A stretch of 64,000 bases of DNA from Mucilaginibacter conchicola (GTDB lineage: Bacteria > Bacteroidota > Bacteroidia > Sphingobacteriales > Sphingobacteriaceae): assembly GCF_003432115.1 (NCBI RefSeq), contig NZ_QWDC01000002.1, positions 1,268,878-1,332,877 on the forward strand, given 5' to 3'. Below are positions 30,176 through 35,450 of the stretch, piece by piece. A model generated the notes under the pieces. It was not told the DNA's origin. It made no database searches and saw only the letters and a list, made by a program, of their open reading frames with translations. Position numbers and translations under genes: made by a program. Numbering within the stretch: the first letter of the stretch is position 1; each line of letters opens with the position of its first letter.

Positions 30176-30207
30176 TTGCTTATTTAAATAATATCTACTT
30201 ACTTTAC
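30176..30207 (+). promoter_or_regulatory. candidate promoter of the threonine operon
   Basis: TTG (30176-30178), 21 bp, TACTTTAC (30200-30207), two bases off TAnnTTTG. If right, transcription starts a few bases before the leader-peptide ATG at 30219. Confidence 0.42.
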
Positions 30208-30218
30208 CGACATTATAT

Positions 30219-30284
30219 ATGACAATTAACAACACAACAATTACAACTATTATTACCACCGGTATAAACCTCGGAGGAAGATAG
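30219..30284 (+). CDS. thrL: threonine operon leader peptide
   Basis: A 21-codon open frame with 7 threonine and 5 isoleucine codons; residues 6-14 read TTITTIITT. This matches the logic of E. coli thrL, where shortage of charged tRNA-Thr or tRNA-Ile stalls the ribosome. It lies directly upstream of thrA and ends in GINLGGR before a TAG stop. The codons for the last residues form the 5' arm of an antiterminator (30271-30280). No other role is apparent for such a biased short frame. Confidence 0.87.
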   Translation: MTINNTTITTIITTGINLGGR

Positions 30285-30354
30285 TCGTATGGTGTAAAAA
30301 ACATAAAATGAAACCAAACAGAAAGCCTTCCTCCGAAACGGGGAAGGCTTTTTT
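30271..30354 (+). promoter_or_regulatory. threonine attenuator: antiterminator and terminator
   Basis: Terminator: AAAGCCTTCC (30322-30331) with GGAAGGCTTT (30342-30351), then T residues to 30354. Antiterminator: TCGGAGGAAG (30271-30280) is the exact complement of CTTCCTCCGA (30327-30336), which overlaps the terminator's 5' arm, so the two cannot form together. A ribosome stalled at Thr codons (30222-30260) leaves 30271-30280 free and allows read-through; one that reaches the stop at 30282-30284 covers it and lets the terminator form. Confidence 0.87.
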
Positions 30355-30367
30355 ATTATAACTTAAA

Positions 30368-32818
30368 ATGAAAGTATTAAAATTTGGAGGTACATCAGTA
30401 GGGTCGGTAGGAAGTATAAAAACCCTGCTTGATATTTTAAAAGCCGAGGACAAGCCACAAAGCAGGCCGGTGGTAGTGTTATCAGCCATGGGCGGGGTAA
30501 CCAACCTGCTTATTGCGATGGCAGAAGGCGCTGCCGAAGGCAAAGAGTTTACCGCTCAATTAGCCGAGTTGGAGAAACGCCACTTTGATGTGGTGAAAGC
30601 GTTGCTTGACGTGCAGAACCAGAACCCTGCCTTTACCCGCCTCAAGATCCACTTTAACCAGCTGGAAGAATTGCTGCAAGGCGTGCTTACCCTGCGCGAA
30701 CTTACCCCCAAAACCCGCGACCAGATCGTGAGCTTTGGCGAACGCTGCTCTGCGCTGATGGTGAGCAAAATTGCTGCCCAGCATTTTAAAGATGTATTGT
30801 TTGTTGATGCCTCTGAATTAATTAAAACTGATAGCGCTTTCGGCAATGCTAAAGTGAACAGCGATTTGACCGAGCTGTTGATCAACAGTTTTTACCACGA
30901 GCACAAGAATGAGCTGCTAATAGTAACCGGTTTTATTGCCGGTAACGATGCAGGCCAGATAACCACCCTTGGCCGCGGTGGCAGCGATTATACTGCAGCC
31001 ATATTCGGTGCGGCGCTTAATGCCGAAGAGATTCAGATATGGACTGACGTGAACGGCATGATGACCGCCGACCCACGTATGGTAAAAAAGGCATTCCCGC
31101 TTGAGGAGCTTTCATACACCGAGGCTATGGAGCTTTCTTACTTCGGTGCCAAGGTGATCTACCCGCCAACTATGATCCCGGCGTTTTTGAAGAAGATCCC
31201 TATCGTCATCAAAAACACTTTTGAGCCGGCGTTTGCGGGTACGGTTATCCGTCATGATTGTAAATCGTCAAACCTGCCTATCAAGGGTATCTCATCAATC
31301 AATAACATCAGCATATTAAACCTGCAGGGTAGCGGCATGGTGGGTAAATCGGGCTTTAGCGGCAGGTTGTTCTCGCTGCTGGCGAGGGAGCAGATCAATA
31401 TCATTCTCATCACCCAGTCGTCGTCAGAGCATAGTATCACCTTTGCGGTACAGCCTCAGGATGTAGATAAGGCCAGGCAACTGATAGAGCAGGAATTTGA
31501 GCTGGAACTATTAGCCAACAAGCTGGAACCACTGGTGATTGAAAGCAACCAGGCCATTTTAGCCATAGTGGGCGAGAACATGAAACAAACCCCGGGCATG
31601 AGCGGTAAATTGTTCCACGCACTGGGCCGTAACGGTGTAAACGTGCGTGCTATTGCGCAGGGTTCATCAGAGTATAACATCTCGGTGATCATCTCAGCTA
31701 ATGACCTTTCAAAAGCGCTGAACGCCGTGCACGATAGTTTCTTTACCGAACTCACCAAAACACTGCATGCATTTTGCCTGGGTACCGGCAATATCGGCAA
31801 AACCCTGTTTGCGCAGTTAAATGCCCATAAAGATTACCTGCAAAAAAATAACGGCATACAGGTTAAAGTAGTTGGCATCAGCAATACCCGTAAAATGGTG
31901 TTCAACAGCGACGGGCTTTCGTTAGATACCTGGCAGGATGATTTGCAGGCATCAACCCACGAGGCTGATCTGCCGGGCTTTATCGCCAAAATGAAAGAAA
32001 TGAATTTGCCGAACTGCGTGTTCATCGATAATACCGCCAGCCCAAAACCGGTTGAGTTTTACGAGGAAGCGTTTAAGGCAAACGTATCGGTGGTAACCTG
32101 TAATAAGATAGGTAATTCGGCTTCGTTAGCCCAGTACCAAAACTTCAGGGATACCGCACGCAGGCATGGCGTCGATTTCTTTTATGAGACCAACGTAGGC
32201 GCAGGCCTGCCTATCATCCGCACACTAAAAGACCTGATGGGTAGCGGTGACAGGATCCAGAAAATTGAGGCAATATTATCGGGTACTATCTCATTCATCT
32301 TTAATCACTTTAAAGGTGATGCCAATTTCCACGATGTGGTAAAAGAGGCCCAGGAAAAAGGTTATACCGAACCCGACCCGCGCGATGACCTGAGCGGTAA
32401 AGATTTTATGCGCAAGATATTGATCCTTGCCCGTGACGCCGGTCATGAAATGGAAGAGGCCGATGTATCGATAGAAAGCGTGTTGCCGAAAGCTTGTCTG
32501 GAAGCAAAAACCGTTGATGATTTCTACGCAGCCCTTAAAGCCGAAGATGCTTTCTTTGCCGACCTGAAGAACCGTGCCGAAAGTGAAAAAAAAGTACTGC
32601 GTTACATCGGTAAACTGGAGAATGGCAAAGCATCCATCACCCTGCAAATGGTTGATGAGAATCATCCGTTCTACATGCTCAGCGGTAGCGATAACATTAT
32701 CTCCTTCACTACCGATAGGTACCGTGAACGCCCGCTGGTTGTAAAAGGCCCCGGTGCAGGTGCCGAAGTAACCGCCGCCGGCGTATTTGCTGATCTGATA
32801 AATGTGGGAGCTAATTAG
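30368..32818 (+). CDS. thrA: bifunctional aspartate kinase / homoserine dehydrogenase
   Basis: Catalyses the first and third steps from aspartate to threonine. Residues 1-290 are the aspartokinase (KFGGTSVGSV at the start; GRGGSDYTAA around 200), about 310-450 hold two ACT domains for amino-acid feedback (SGMVGKSGFSGRLF; NVRAIAQGSSEYNISV), and 460-816 are homoserine dehydrogenase with the nucleotide motif GTGNIG and the GLPIIRTL segment. The 816-aa length equals E. coli ThrA (820). First structural gene of the thr operon, 14 bases after the attenuator. Confidence 0.97.
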   Translation: MKVLKFGGTSVGSVGSIKTLLDILKAEDKPQSRPVVVLSAMGGVTNLLIAMAEGAAEGKEFTAQLAELEKRHFDVVKALLDVQNQNPAFTRLKIHFNQLEELLQGVLTLRELTPKTRDQIVSFGERCSALMVSKIAAQHFKDVLFVDASELIKTDSAFGNAKVNSDLTELLINSFYHEHKNELLIVTGFIAGNDAGQITTLGRGGSDYTAAIFGAALNAEEIQIWTDVNGMMTADPRMVKKAFPLEELSYTEAMELSYFGAKVIYPPTMIPAFLKKIPIVIKNTFEPAFAGTVIRHDCKSSNLPIKGISSINNISILNLQGSGMVGKSGFSGRLFSLLAREQINIILITQSSSEHSITFAVQPQDVDKARQLIEQEFELELLANKLEPLVIESNQAILAIVGENMKQTPGMSGKLFHALGRNGVNVRAIAQGSSEYNISVIISANDLSKALNAVHDSFFTELTKTLHAFCLGTGNIGKTLFAQLNAHKDYLQKNNGIQVKVVGISNTRKMVFNSDGLSLDTWQDDLQASTHEADLPGFIAKMKEMNLPNCVFIDNTASPKPVEFYEEAFKANVSVVTCNKIGNSASLAQYQNFRDTARRHGVDFFYETNVGAGLPIIRTLKDLMGSGDRIQKIEAILSGTISFIFNHFKGDANFHDVVKEAQEKGYTEPDPRDDLSGKDFMRKILILARDAGHEMEEADVSIESVLPKACLEAKTVDDFYAALKAEDAFFADLKNRAESEKKVLRYIGKLENGKASITLQMVDENHPFYMLSGSDNIISFTTDRYRERPLVVKGPGAGAEVTAAGVFADLINVGAN

Positions 32819-32923: not shown

Positions 32924-33910
32924 ATGAGTAACGATATACAAGATTTAAAACAACCATTGGCGAAGGCCAACGCGGGCTTAGACAGCGTTCACGTTTTTGC
33001 CCCGGCCACCGTGGCCAATGTGGTTTGTGGGTTTGATGTGCTGGGCTTTGCAGTTAACGAGCCTGGCGACGAGGTGGTAATGCGCCGCACCAATAAGCCG
33101 GGCATCAGCATCAGCAAAATAACCGGCGATAACGGCCGTTTGCCAATGGATCCGGCTAAGAACACCGTGAGCGTAAGCGTAGAGCATTACCTTAAAAGTG
33201 TTGGCCGTTTGGATGTAGGTGTGGATATTGAACTGCACAAGAAAATGCCGATAGGCAGCGGGCTGGGCTCAAGCTCAGCGAGCACGGTGGCGGGTTTATA
33301 TGCCATTAAAACTTTATTGGGCGATGATTCTAACCCAGCTAAACTGTTGCCCTTTGCCATGAAAGGCGAGGAGCTGGCTTGTGGTCATGGTCATGCCGAT
33401 AACGTGGCGCCGGCTTTATTTGGCGGCTTTGTTTTGATCCGTAGCTATGAGCCTTTGGATGTAGTTAGATTACCTCACCCTAAAGATCTGTGGTGTGCCA
33501 TTGTGTTCCCTGATGTGGATGTGCCTACCCGCGAGGCCAGGCAGATCATCCGCAACAAAATAAACATGAAGGATGCCGTAACCCAGTGGGGCAACATTGC
33601 CGGCCTGGTAAGCGGCTTGTTTATGCAGGATATTGACCTGATAGGCCGCAGCATGCAGGATGTGCTGGTTGAGCCGGTGCGCAGCATGCTGATCCCCGAT
33701 TTTTATGAGATGCGCAAAATGGCTATGGATCTTGGCGCGGTAAGTTTCGGCATCTCAGGCTCGGGGCCATCAGTATTTGCCTTTACCCGCGATGAACAGA
33801 CTGCAAGGCTCATCACCGGTAAACTGAAACAACACCTCAATAGCATCAAAATAGGCGCTAATACTTATGTATCTACCATTAACGATGCCGGGCCGAGGGT
33901 GATAGGGTAA
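32924..33910 (+). CDS. thrB: homoserine kinase
   Basis: GHMP-family kinase that phosphorylates homoserine. The ATP loop PIGSGLGSSSAS is at about residues 106-117, and the C-terminal GHMP motif FGISGSGPSVFAF at about 272-284. The first 20 residues before VHVFAPATVANV are an extra lead compared with E. coli ThrB, which opens with the equivalent strand; the ATG at 32924 is still the only good start. 328 aa. It lies between thrA and thrC in the threonine operon, separated by repeat-rich spacers. Confidence 0.95.
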   Translation: MSNDIQDLKQPLAKANAGLDSVHVFAPATVANVVCGFDVLGFAVNEPGDEVVMRRTNKPGISISKITGDNGRLPMDPAKNTVSVSVEHYLKSVGRLDVGVDIELHKKMPIGSGLGSSSASTVAGLYAIKTLLGDDSNPAKLLPFAMKGEELACGHGHADNVAPALFGGFVLIRSYEPLDVVRLPHPKDLWCAIVFPDVDVPTREARQIIRNKINMKDAVTQWGNIAGLVSGLFMQDIDLIGRSMQDVLVEPVRSMLIPDFYEMRKMAMDLGAVSFGISGSGPSVFAFTRDEQTARLITGKLKQHLNSIKIGANTYVSTINDAGPRVIG

Positions 33911-34139: not shown

Positions 34140-35450
34140 ATGAAATTCTACAGCACAAATAACAAAGACCTTAGGGTTGGTTTTAAAGAAGCGGTTTTCA
34201 ACAGCATGCCGCAGGATAAGGGTTTATACATGCCGGAGCATATCCCGCACCTGGATGATAAATTCCTGAATAATCTGGATCAGTACACACTGCCCGAGAT
34301 CGCTTACCACGTAGCGCAAAACCTGCTGGGTGATGATATCCCTGCCGATGACCTGAAGGCCATCATTAACGATGCCATTAACTTTTACGCACCGATAGTT
34401 GAACTGGAAAAGAATGTTTTTGTGCTGGAGCTTTTCCACGGCCCATCATTGGCGTTTAAAGATTTTGGCGCGAGATTTATGAGTCGCGTAATGAGCTATT
34501 TCCTTGAGGAAGGCGAGAAACAACTGGACGTGCTGGTAGCCACATCCGGCGATACCGGAGGTGCCGTTGCACTGGGCTTTTTGGGCGTGCCCAACACAAG
34601 GGTAACCATCCTTTATCCAAAAGGGAAGGTAAGCCATATACAAGAACTGCAACTCACCACCAACGGACAAAACATCCGTGCGCTTGAAATTGATGGTACT
34701 TTTGATGATTGCCAGGCGCTGGTTAAACAGGCGTTTACTGATAAAGAACTGAATGAGAAGTTCCGTTTAACATCGGCTAACTCTATCAATATTGCGAGGC
34801 TGATCCCGCAGACTTTCTACTACTTTAATGCCTATGCCCAACTGCTTCGCCAGGGTATCAGCAAAGCAGTATTCTGCGTGCCGAGCGGCAACTTCGGTAA
34901 CATAGGCGCAGGCTTGTTGGCCTGGAAGATGGGCCTGCCTGTGGAGCATTTCATAGCAGCAACCAATGCAAATGATACCGTACCTGCTTTTTTAAAGACC
35001 GGCGTTTACGAAGCCAAACCATCAGTAGCTACCCTGTCAAACGCTATGGACGTAGGTAACCCGAGCAACTGGGTACGTATTGCCGATCTGTTTGATCAGG
35101 ATATGGATACGCTGAAACAACTCATAACCGGCTACAGCTACAACGATGAAGAAACACTTGCTGCCATCGAAGCACTATCAAAAGATGATAACTATGTGGC
35201 CTGCCCGCATACCGCCATTGCCTGGAAGGCCTTGAAAGCTTACCAACAGGAGCATCCTGCTGATGATACTGCCGGTATATTCCTGTCAACCGCGCACCCT
35301 TGTAAATTCCCGGATGTGTTTAAACCGGAGATAGCTGAAAAAATAGAGGTGCCTGCACAGGTGAAAGACCTGGAAGCCAGAGAAAGCAAGGCTGTAAGCC
35401 TAAGTACAAACTTTGATGATTTTAAGAGCTATTTACTAACCAATGCCTGA
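34140..35450 (+). CDS. thrC: threonine synthase
   Basis: PLP enzyme that converts phosphohomoserine into threonine. The PLP lysine lies in LAFKDFGARF (about residue 110), and the phosphate-binding and substrate motifs SGDTGGAV and VPSGNFGNIGAG are present. The protein has 436 aa, the usual size of the E. coli-type enzyme (428), with the N-terminal signature YMPEHIP. Third structural gene of the thr operon; its end overlaps the next acetyltransferase gene by eight bases. Confidence 0.96.
   Translation: MKFYSTNNKDLRVGFKEAVFNSMPQDKGLYMPEHIPHLDDKFLNNLDQYTLPEIAYHVAQNLLGDDIPADDLKAIINDAINFYAPIVELEKNVFVLELFHGPSLAFKDFGARFMSRVMSYFLEEGEKQLDVLVATSGDTGGAVALGFLGVPNTRVTILYPKGKVSHIQELQLTTNGQNIRALEIDGTFDDCQALVKQAFTDKELNEKFRLTSANSINIARLIPQTFYYFNAYAQLLRQGISKAVFCVPSGNFGNIGAGLLAWKMGLPVEHFIAATNANDTVPAFLKTGVYEAKPSVATLSNAMDVGNPSNWVRIADLFDQDMDTLKQLITGYSYNDEETLAAIEALSKDDNYVACPHTAIAWKALKAYQQEHPADDTAGIFLSTAHPCKFPDVFKPEIAEKIEVPAQVKDLEARESKAVSLSTNFDDFKSYLLTNA

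Follow-up and report, generated by a model that had tools for sequence, protein, structure and literature searches.

What controls transcription of the threonine operon in Mucilaginibacter conchicola? Mucilaginibacter is a soil bacterium, and the threonine attenuator is a textbook device of E. coli. The window, the whole 64,000-nt stretch of M. conchicola DNA that was analysed, carries upstream of thrA an element at 30219–30354 through which a translating ribosome very probably controls transcription of thrABC by attenuation. The original prediction, attenuation by threonine and isoleucine through translation of a leader, is the best reading of this element. The leader, the pairings, their conservation across the family and the covariation are seen in the sequences. 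The promoter, the ribosome positions, the coupling of transcription to translation and the response to threonine are proposed here from the sequence and by analogy with E. coli thrL.

The operon comprises three genes:

30368–32818, forward strand: thrA, bifunctional aspartate kinase/homoserine dehydrogenase (NF006959, 1056.9 bits against a cut-off of 726; PF00696, PF00742)
32924–33910, forward strand: thrB, homoserine kinase (NF002288, TIGR00191)
34140–35450, forward strand: thrC, threonine synthase (TIGR00260)

The closest homologues of the window's ThrA are 96–98% identical and come from Mucilaginibacter records. The upstream neighbour of the attenuator is rsgA, which is divergently oriented; a terminator at this place can therefore act only on transcripts that start between rsgA and thrA.

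A short reading frame precedes thrA:

30219–30284, forward strand: leader reading frame MTINNTTITTIITTGINLGGR, closed by a stop codon, with seven Thr and five Ile codons among 21 sense codons

The leader begins with ATG at 30219 and ends with TAG at 30282–30284, leaving 83 nt to the thrA ATG. All coordinates and codon counts of the original prediction proved exact on re-reading. The run of Thr and Ile codons is exceptionally dense. None of 5000 dinucleotide shuffles of the intergenic region (248 nt) reached a density of 12 per 16 residues; among 1030 window segments a single one did, presumably the leader's own. The peptide matched no Pfam or NCBIfam family at E up to 10, a 21-residue query being near the limit of the method.

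The leader is conserved. A total of 167 thrA upstream regions were compared, composed of the window, 78 loci from a genome contig scan and 88 from a family survey in which 134 of 161 genomes had such a thrA. A Thr/Ile leader is present in all 167. The strongest run per region in the relatives has a median of 11 Thr/Ile residues in 16 and a minimum of 7, whereas 7 is reached by 15 of 162 reverse-complement controls and 8, the highest value there, by two. Just past the leader stop, 30288–30297 (TATGGTGTAA) contains ATG GTG TAA and is near-invariant in Mucilaginibacter. At several loci of other genera (L076, L080–L082 and L138–L140), the leader frame reads on through a block of this type and stops at its TAA.

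A candidate promoter of the Bacteroidota type lies upstream of the leader:

30176–30207, forward strand: candidate promoter, with a −33 TTG at 30176–30178 and a −7 box, TACTTTAC, at 30200–30207

In a search of the 70 nt that precede the leader start, 130 of 162 relatives have the pattern TTG-N17–24-T[AT]nnTTT[GA], compared with 23 of 162 reverse-complement controls. Transcription would start near 30212–30216, which would place the leader AUG only a few nucleotides from the 5′ end of the transcript. A match to an E. coli-type sigma-70 promoter within the leader was at chance level and was set aside.

A strong hairpin followed by a T-run separates the leader from thrA:

30320–30354, forward strand: intrinsic terminator, in which 30320–30331 pairs with 30342–30353 and, inside, 30333–30335 with 30339–30341, followed by a T-run at 30349–30354

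As originally predicted, AAAGCCTTCC (30322–30331) and GGAAGGCTTT (30342–30351) are perfect complements, and six T follow. The fold of 30320–30353 has a free energy of −21.1 kcal/mol (z −5.7), and none of 200 shuffles is as good. Among 74 divergent sequences in alignment A1, two-sided compensatory changes occur at 8 of the 10 counted pairs and 95.7% of cells are paired; the covariation score is higher than those of all 500 shuffles and all slid versions. The complete device, leader plus T-tailed terminator, is found at 162 of the 167 regions, nearly all from Sphingobacteriaceae; besides Mucilaginibacter, the regions represent over ten genera of the family. The other five regions have a leader and a hairpin with an interrupted T-run. 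At L037, leader and terminator were missed in the 300 nt searched but are present within 400 nt upstream.

Two kinds of intervening sequence were observed between terminator and gene. First, a long unrelated sequence separates the attenuator from thrA at L037 and L122, so that the leader stop lies about 270 nt before thrA; leader and terminator are unchanged. Second, a palindromic repeat, with a CCTCTCCNNAGGAGAGG core inside GCCTCACCC...GGGTGAGGC, lies between the terminator and thrA in several Mucilaginibacter (L004–L006, L010, L012, L020, L031, L050, L114 and L115). It apparently reflects more than one insertion, also occurs elsewhere in some of these loci, and is absent from the window.

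A leader could also act mainly on translation of thrA, by reinitiation or by occlusion of the start, and leader genes near a structural gene have been proposed to boost translation by reinitiation (PMC4833913). This explanation is very improbable here. The distance from leader stop to thrA ATG is 83 nt in the window and about 270 nt in L122, and the strong T-tailed hairpin is retained in almost every relative.

For attenuation of transcription, the state of the leader has to be transmitted to the terminator. The last codons of the leader provide a competing structure:

30271–30280, forward strand: arm 2, TCGGAGGAAG, the last leader codons and 5′ arm of the antiterminator
30327–30336, forward strand: arm 3, CTTCCTCCGA, which pairs with arm 2 in the antiterminator or forms the 5′ side of the terminator
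30290–30293, forward strand: UGGU, 5′ side of an inner antiterminator helix, within a conserved block (UAUGGUGUAA) just past the leader stop
30313–30316, forward strand: ACCA, 3′ side of the inner helix and partner of UGGU

The exact complementarity of arms 2 and 3 was confirmed letter by letter (TCGGAGGAAG against CTTCCTCCGA). A perfect 10-nt complement arises by chance in 1 of 5000 shuffles. With the 3′ arm of the terminator withheld, the 2:3 antiterminator folds with −23.5 kcal/mol (z −4.4), a value matched by none of 200 shuffles.

The antiterminator also covaries, and it excludes the terminator by sharing arm 3. In alignment A1, made with MAFFT, the cells paired, the two-sided cells and the covariation score of the antiterminator are all above shuffles, and these pair counts are understated because arm 2 falls out of register across genera. 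Greater weight is therefore given to a register-free swap test, in which leader ends were paired with the terminator arms of their own or of another genome. In the 25 sequences with a terminator arm other than CCUUCCUC, the mean energy is −13.96 kcal/mol for own and −10.87 kcal/mol for swapped arms, and 0 of 5000 permutations was as good (P < 1/5000), in a test that ignores kinship among the sequences and is made conservative by swaps within a genus. Compensated arm pairs include CGGGAC/GUCCCG in G232, CGGGAGC/GCUCCCG in G254 and CGAGGGGAG/CGCUUCCCUC in G181. The core of arm 2 is nearly constant within Mucilaginibacter, and the covariation comes mainly from other genera. Covariation of the 10-bp pairing across related genera, the check that the original prediction had named for itself, is thus present. 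Leader frame and pairing, on whose conservation in relatives that prediction had staked its case, are both conserved with compensatory changes.

The inner UGGU/ACCA helix is paired in 65% of cells. Own and swapped halves differ with P = 0.005 overall and with P = 0.17 in the subset lacking UGGU, which gives moderate support to the suggestion that this helix lengthens the antiterminator.

The GGAGGAAG-like element at the end of the leader is read in different frames among the relatives: as Gly-Gly-Arg in frame 0 (101 cases), Arg-Arg-Lys in frame 1 (17) and Glu-Glu-Gly in frame 2 (10). Since all three frames are used, the RNA rather than the peptide is under selection at this end. The same shift bears on the possibility that a T-box, a metabolite riboswitch or a protein governs the terminator, the reading frame being incidental. 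Such control is common in amino-acid operons of Firmicutes. It is nonetheless highly unlikely at this locus: the leader retains its start, its Thr/Ile density and a stop although its C-terminal frame shifts, and Rfam searches found no T-box or riboswitch family at the gathering threshold in the window and none convincing among the weak matches at the locus.

The third structure involves the region just before and within arm 2:

30256–30277, forward strand: 1:2 (protector/pause) hairpin, in which 30256–30257 and 30259–30262 pair with 30271–30274 and 30276–30277

Its 5′ arm contains the last two Thr codons. No separate pause hairpin had been seen at first, and the original prediction had suggested a simpler attenuator of two structures. 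The window by itself would favour that suggestion, as its 1:2 hairpin (30256–30262/30271–30277) is weak (−5.5 kcal/mol, z −0.9). The family contradicts it. In 75 sequences the mean z is −1.16, and z is below zero in 63. The two halves of the hairpin in 73 divergent relatives give −7.04 kcal/mol when paired with their own partner and −5.40 kcal/mol when swapped, with 0 of 5000 permutations as good. In 36 variants with a 5′ arm other than CCACCGG, own halves give −7.36 and swapped halves −4.79 kcal/mol, again with 0 of 5000 permutations as good. Covariation of the hairpin is also found in the pair counts. An attenuator without a 1:2 hairpin is therefore improbable. As read from these conserved pairings, the attenuator is of the full three-structure type (1:2, 2:3 and 3:4). 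Because the hairpin is weak in the window, the behaviour of this copy without translation is uncertain.

These elements suggest how leader translation would control the operon. RNA polymerase would start near 30214, and a ribosome would translate the leader. With Thr-tRNA, and probably Ile-tRNA as well, in ample supply, the ribosome would reach the stop codon at 30282–30284 and cover arm 2 (30271–30280). Arm 3 would then be free, the terminator at 30320–30354 would form, and transcription would end short of thrA. A shortage of Thr-tRNA would make the ribosome stall on a Thr codon within 30222–30260. In that position it would sit on the 5′ half of the 1:2 hairpin, leaving arm 2 available for pairing with arm 3 (30327–30336). 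This pairing would block the terminator, and thrABC would be transcribed. Isoleucine is made from threonine, and the Ile codons at 30225–30252 would add a response to isoleucine.

The spacing of the leader is consistent with this scheme. A ribosome shields some 12 nt of mRNA ahead of the codon that it is reading (PMC4833913). By this footprint, arm 2 stays accessible whichever of the seven Thr codons the ribosome waits at. When the last of them (30258) occupies the A site, the leading edge is at about 30270 and just reaches the border of arm 2; one codon further on, the ribosome begins to cover the arm. At the leader stop the calculation gives full cover, in line with the original proposal that a ribosome there would mask the antiterminator arm. 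In some relatives the leader stop lies 20–23 nt past the start of arm 2, and a ribosome at that stop would cover the arm only partly.

The element resembles thrL of E. coli and other gamma-proteobacteria in several respects. Both have a Thr/Ile-rich leader peptide before thrABC, last leader codons that pair with the 5′ arm of the terminator, 1:2, 2:3 and 3:4 structures, and a T-run. The E. coli thrL peptide also has Thr-Thr-Gly after its Thr/Ile run, like the window leader. The arms here (GGAGGAAG/CTTCCTCC) are unlike the gamma-proteobacterial arm sequences. Thr_leader (RF00506) is the best Rfam match at the locus, with 41.7 bits, below its gathering cut-off of 55. Of 20 relatives, 14 gave a match to it with E no higher than 0.1, and the scores in relatives, 27.4–49.6 bits, are all below 55. 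The origin of the element may be shared with gamma-proteobacterial thrL or convergent on it, since RF00506 is the best match but below threshold, and most other Bacteroidota examined have a different leader design.

Leader-peptide control has been described elsewhere in the phylum. In 2010, leader-peptide systems beyond Proteobacteria and Actinobacteria were still called undemonstrated (PMC2965389). The Bacteroid-trp RNA (RF01692) is a Trp leader with a terminator in Bacteroidota (Weinberg et al. 2010, PMC2864571). It shares with the present element a leader peptide of cognate codons and a T-tailed terminator, but differs in its Trp codons, its sequence and its taxa. At the locus its score is 20.6 bits, below the cut-off of 49, the leader has no Trp codon, and a search of the window's own genome gave no RF01692 match at E 0.01. 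In Flavobacterium psychrophilum, attenuation by leader peptides upstream of amino-acid operons has been inferred from transcriptome data (PMC9723704). These predictions concern the same class of control in the same phylum; threonine is absent from the main text of that paper, and the Flavobacteriaceae thr leaders examined here lack a T-tailed terminator. A literature search, with most subscription papers beyond its reach, found no thr attenuator reported for Bacteroidota. Attenuation itself is already precedented in the phylum; a thr attenuator spanning a family appears to be new.

A second leader design is seen in other Bacteroidota. At 29 of 31 Flavobacteriaceae thrA loci (L226–L254 except L228 and L248, plus L092 and L094), the leader finishes within a strongly conserved hairpin of the type ACCCC-loop-GGGGU, which encloses the stop codon, and there is no T-tailed terminator. 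Thr and Ile codons usually lie ahead of the hairpin, several frames are used (TPLG-stop, TPFGV-stop, TP-stop and TLWGC-stop), and a conserved TATATAT block follows. The hairpin also occurs at 9 of 24 Bacteroidales thrA loci (L108, L113, L255, L257, L258, L260, L261, L270 and L276). The pattern was set after inspection of the loci, and these counts are descriptive. Twelve class-wide loci that lack the window's design, 11 of the hairpin type plus L089, matched no Rfam leader family. The terminator-less hairpin type is also found at L277, in a Sphingobacteriaceae genome (G152) with a distant ThrA (43% identity), so the leader type may follow the ThrA lineage. L278, from another family (G035), has the terminator-type arrangement.

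Other operons of the window's own genome were inspected as well. Upstream of hisG (L202, G000:C1 near 1220964), a His leader, MEKYKLHHLHLHHHHAVVNR followed by a stop codon, lies about 130 to 67 nt before the gene. It ends in a hairpin, CACCACGCUGUGGUG, just before the stop, and has no T-run terminator. The region upstream of ilvD contains no leader of the thr-attenuator type. A motif GATART...GTTTCTACG, considered as common to the his leader and the Bacteroidales thr leaders, was unenriched relative to a reversed control in 148 genomes and was rejected.

It is tentatively suggested that thrA in Bacteroidota is under two leader-peptide devices, although the odds lean somewhat against it: the terminator type of Sphingobacteriaceae and a terminator-less type with the ACCCC-loop-GGGGU stop-codon hairpin, found in Flavobacteriaceae and part of Bacteroidales and perhaps also at the window genome's own hisG. 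If this is true, the terminator-less leader would represent an undescribed mechanism of attenuation. The Sphingobacteriaceae attenuator offers a contrast to these Flavobacteriaceae leaders.

Bacteroidota largely lack Shine-Dalgarno-led initiation, and to our knowledge there has been little testing in the phylum of control through coupled transcription and translation. The threonine attenuator, known from gamma-proteobacteria, is extended here to a whole Bacteroidota family. Because one RNA element is read in three leader frames across genera, the family allows selection on the RNA to be told apart from selection on the peptide, as in a natural experiment. The thr leaders are also candidate reporters of amino-acid starvation for Mucilaginibacter, Pedobacter and Sphingobacterium relatives.
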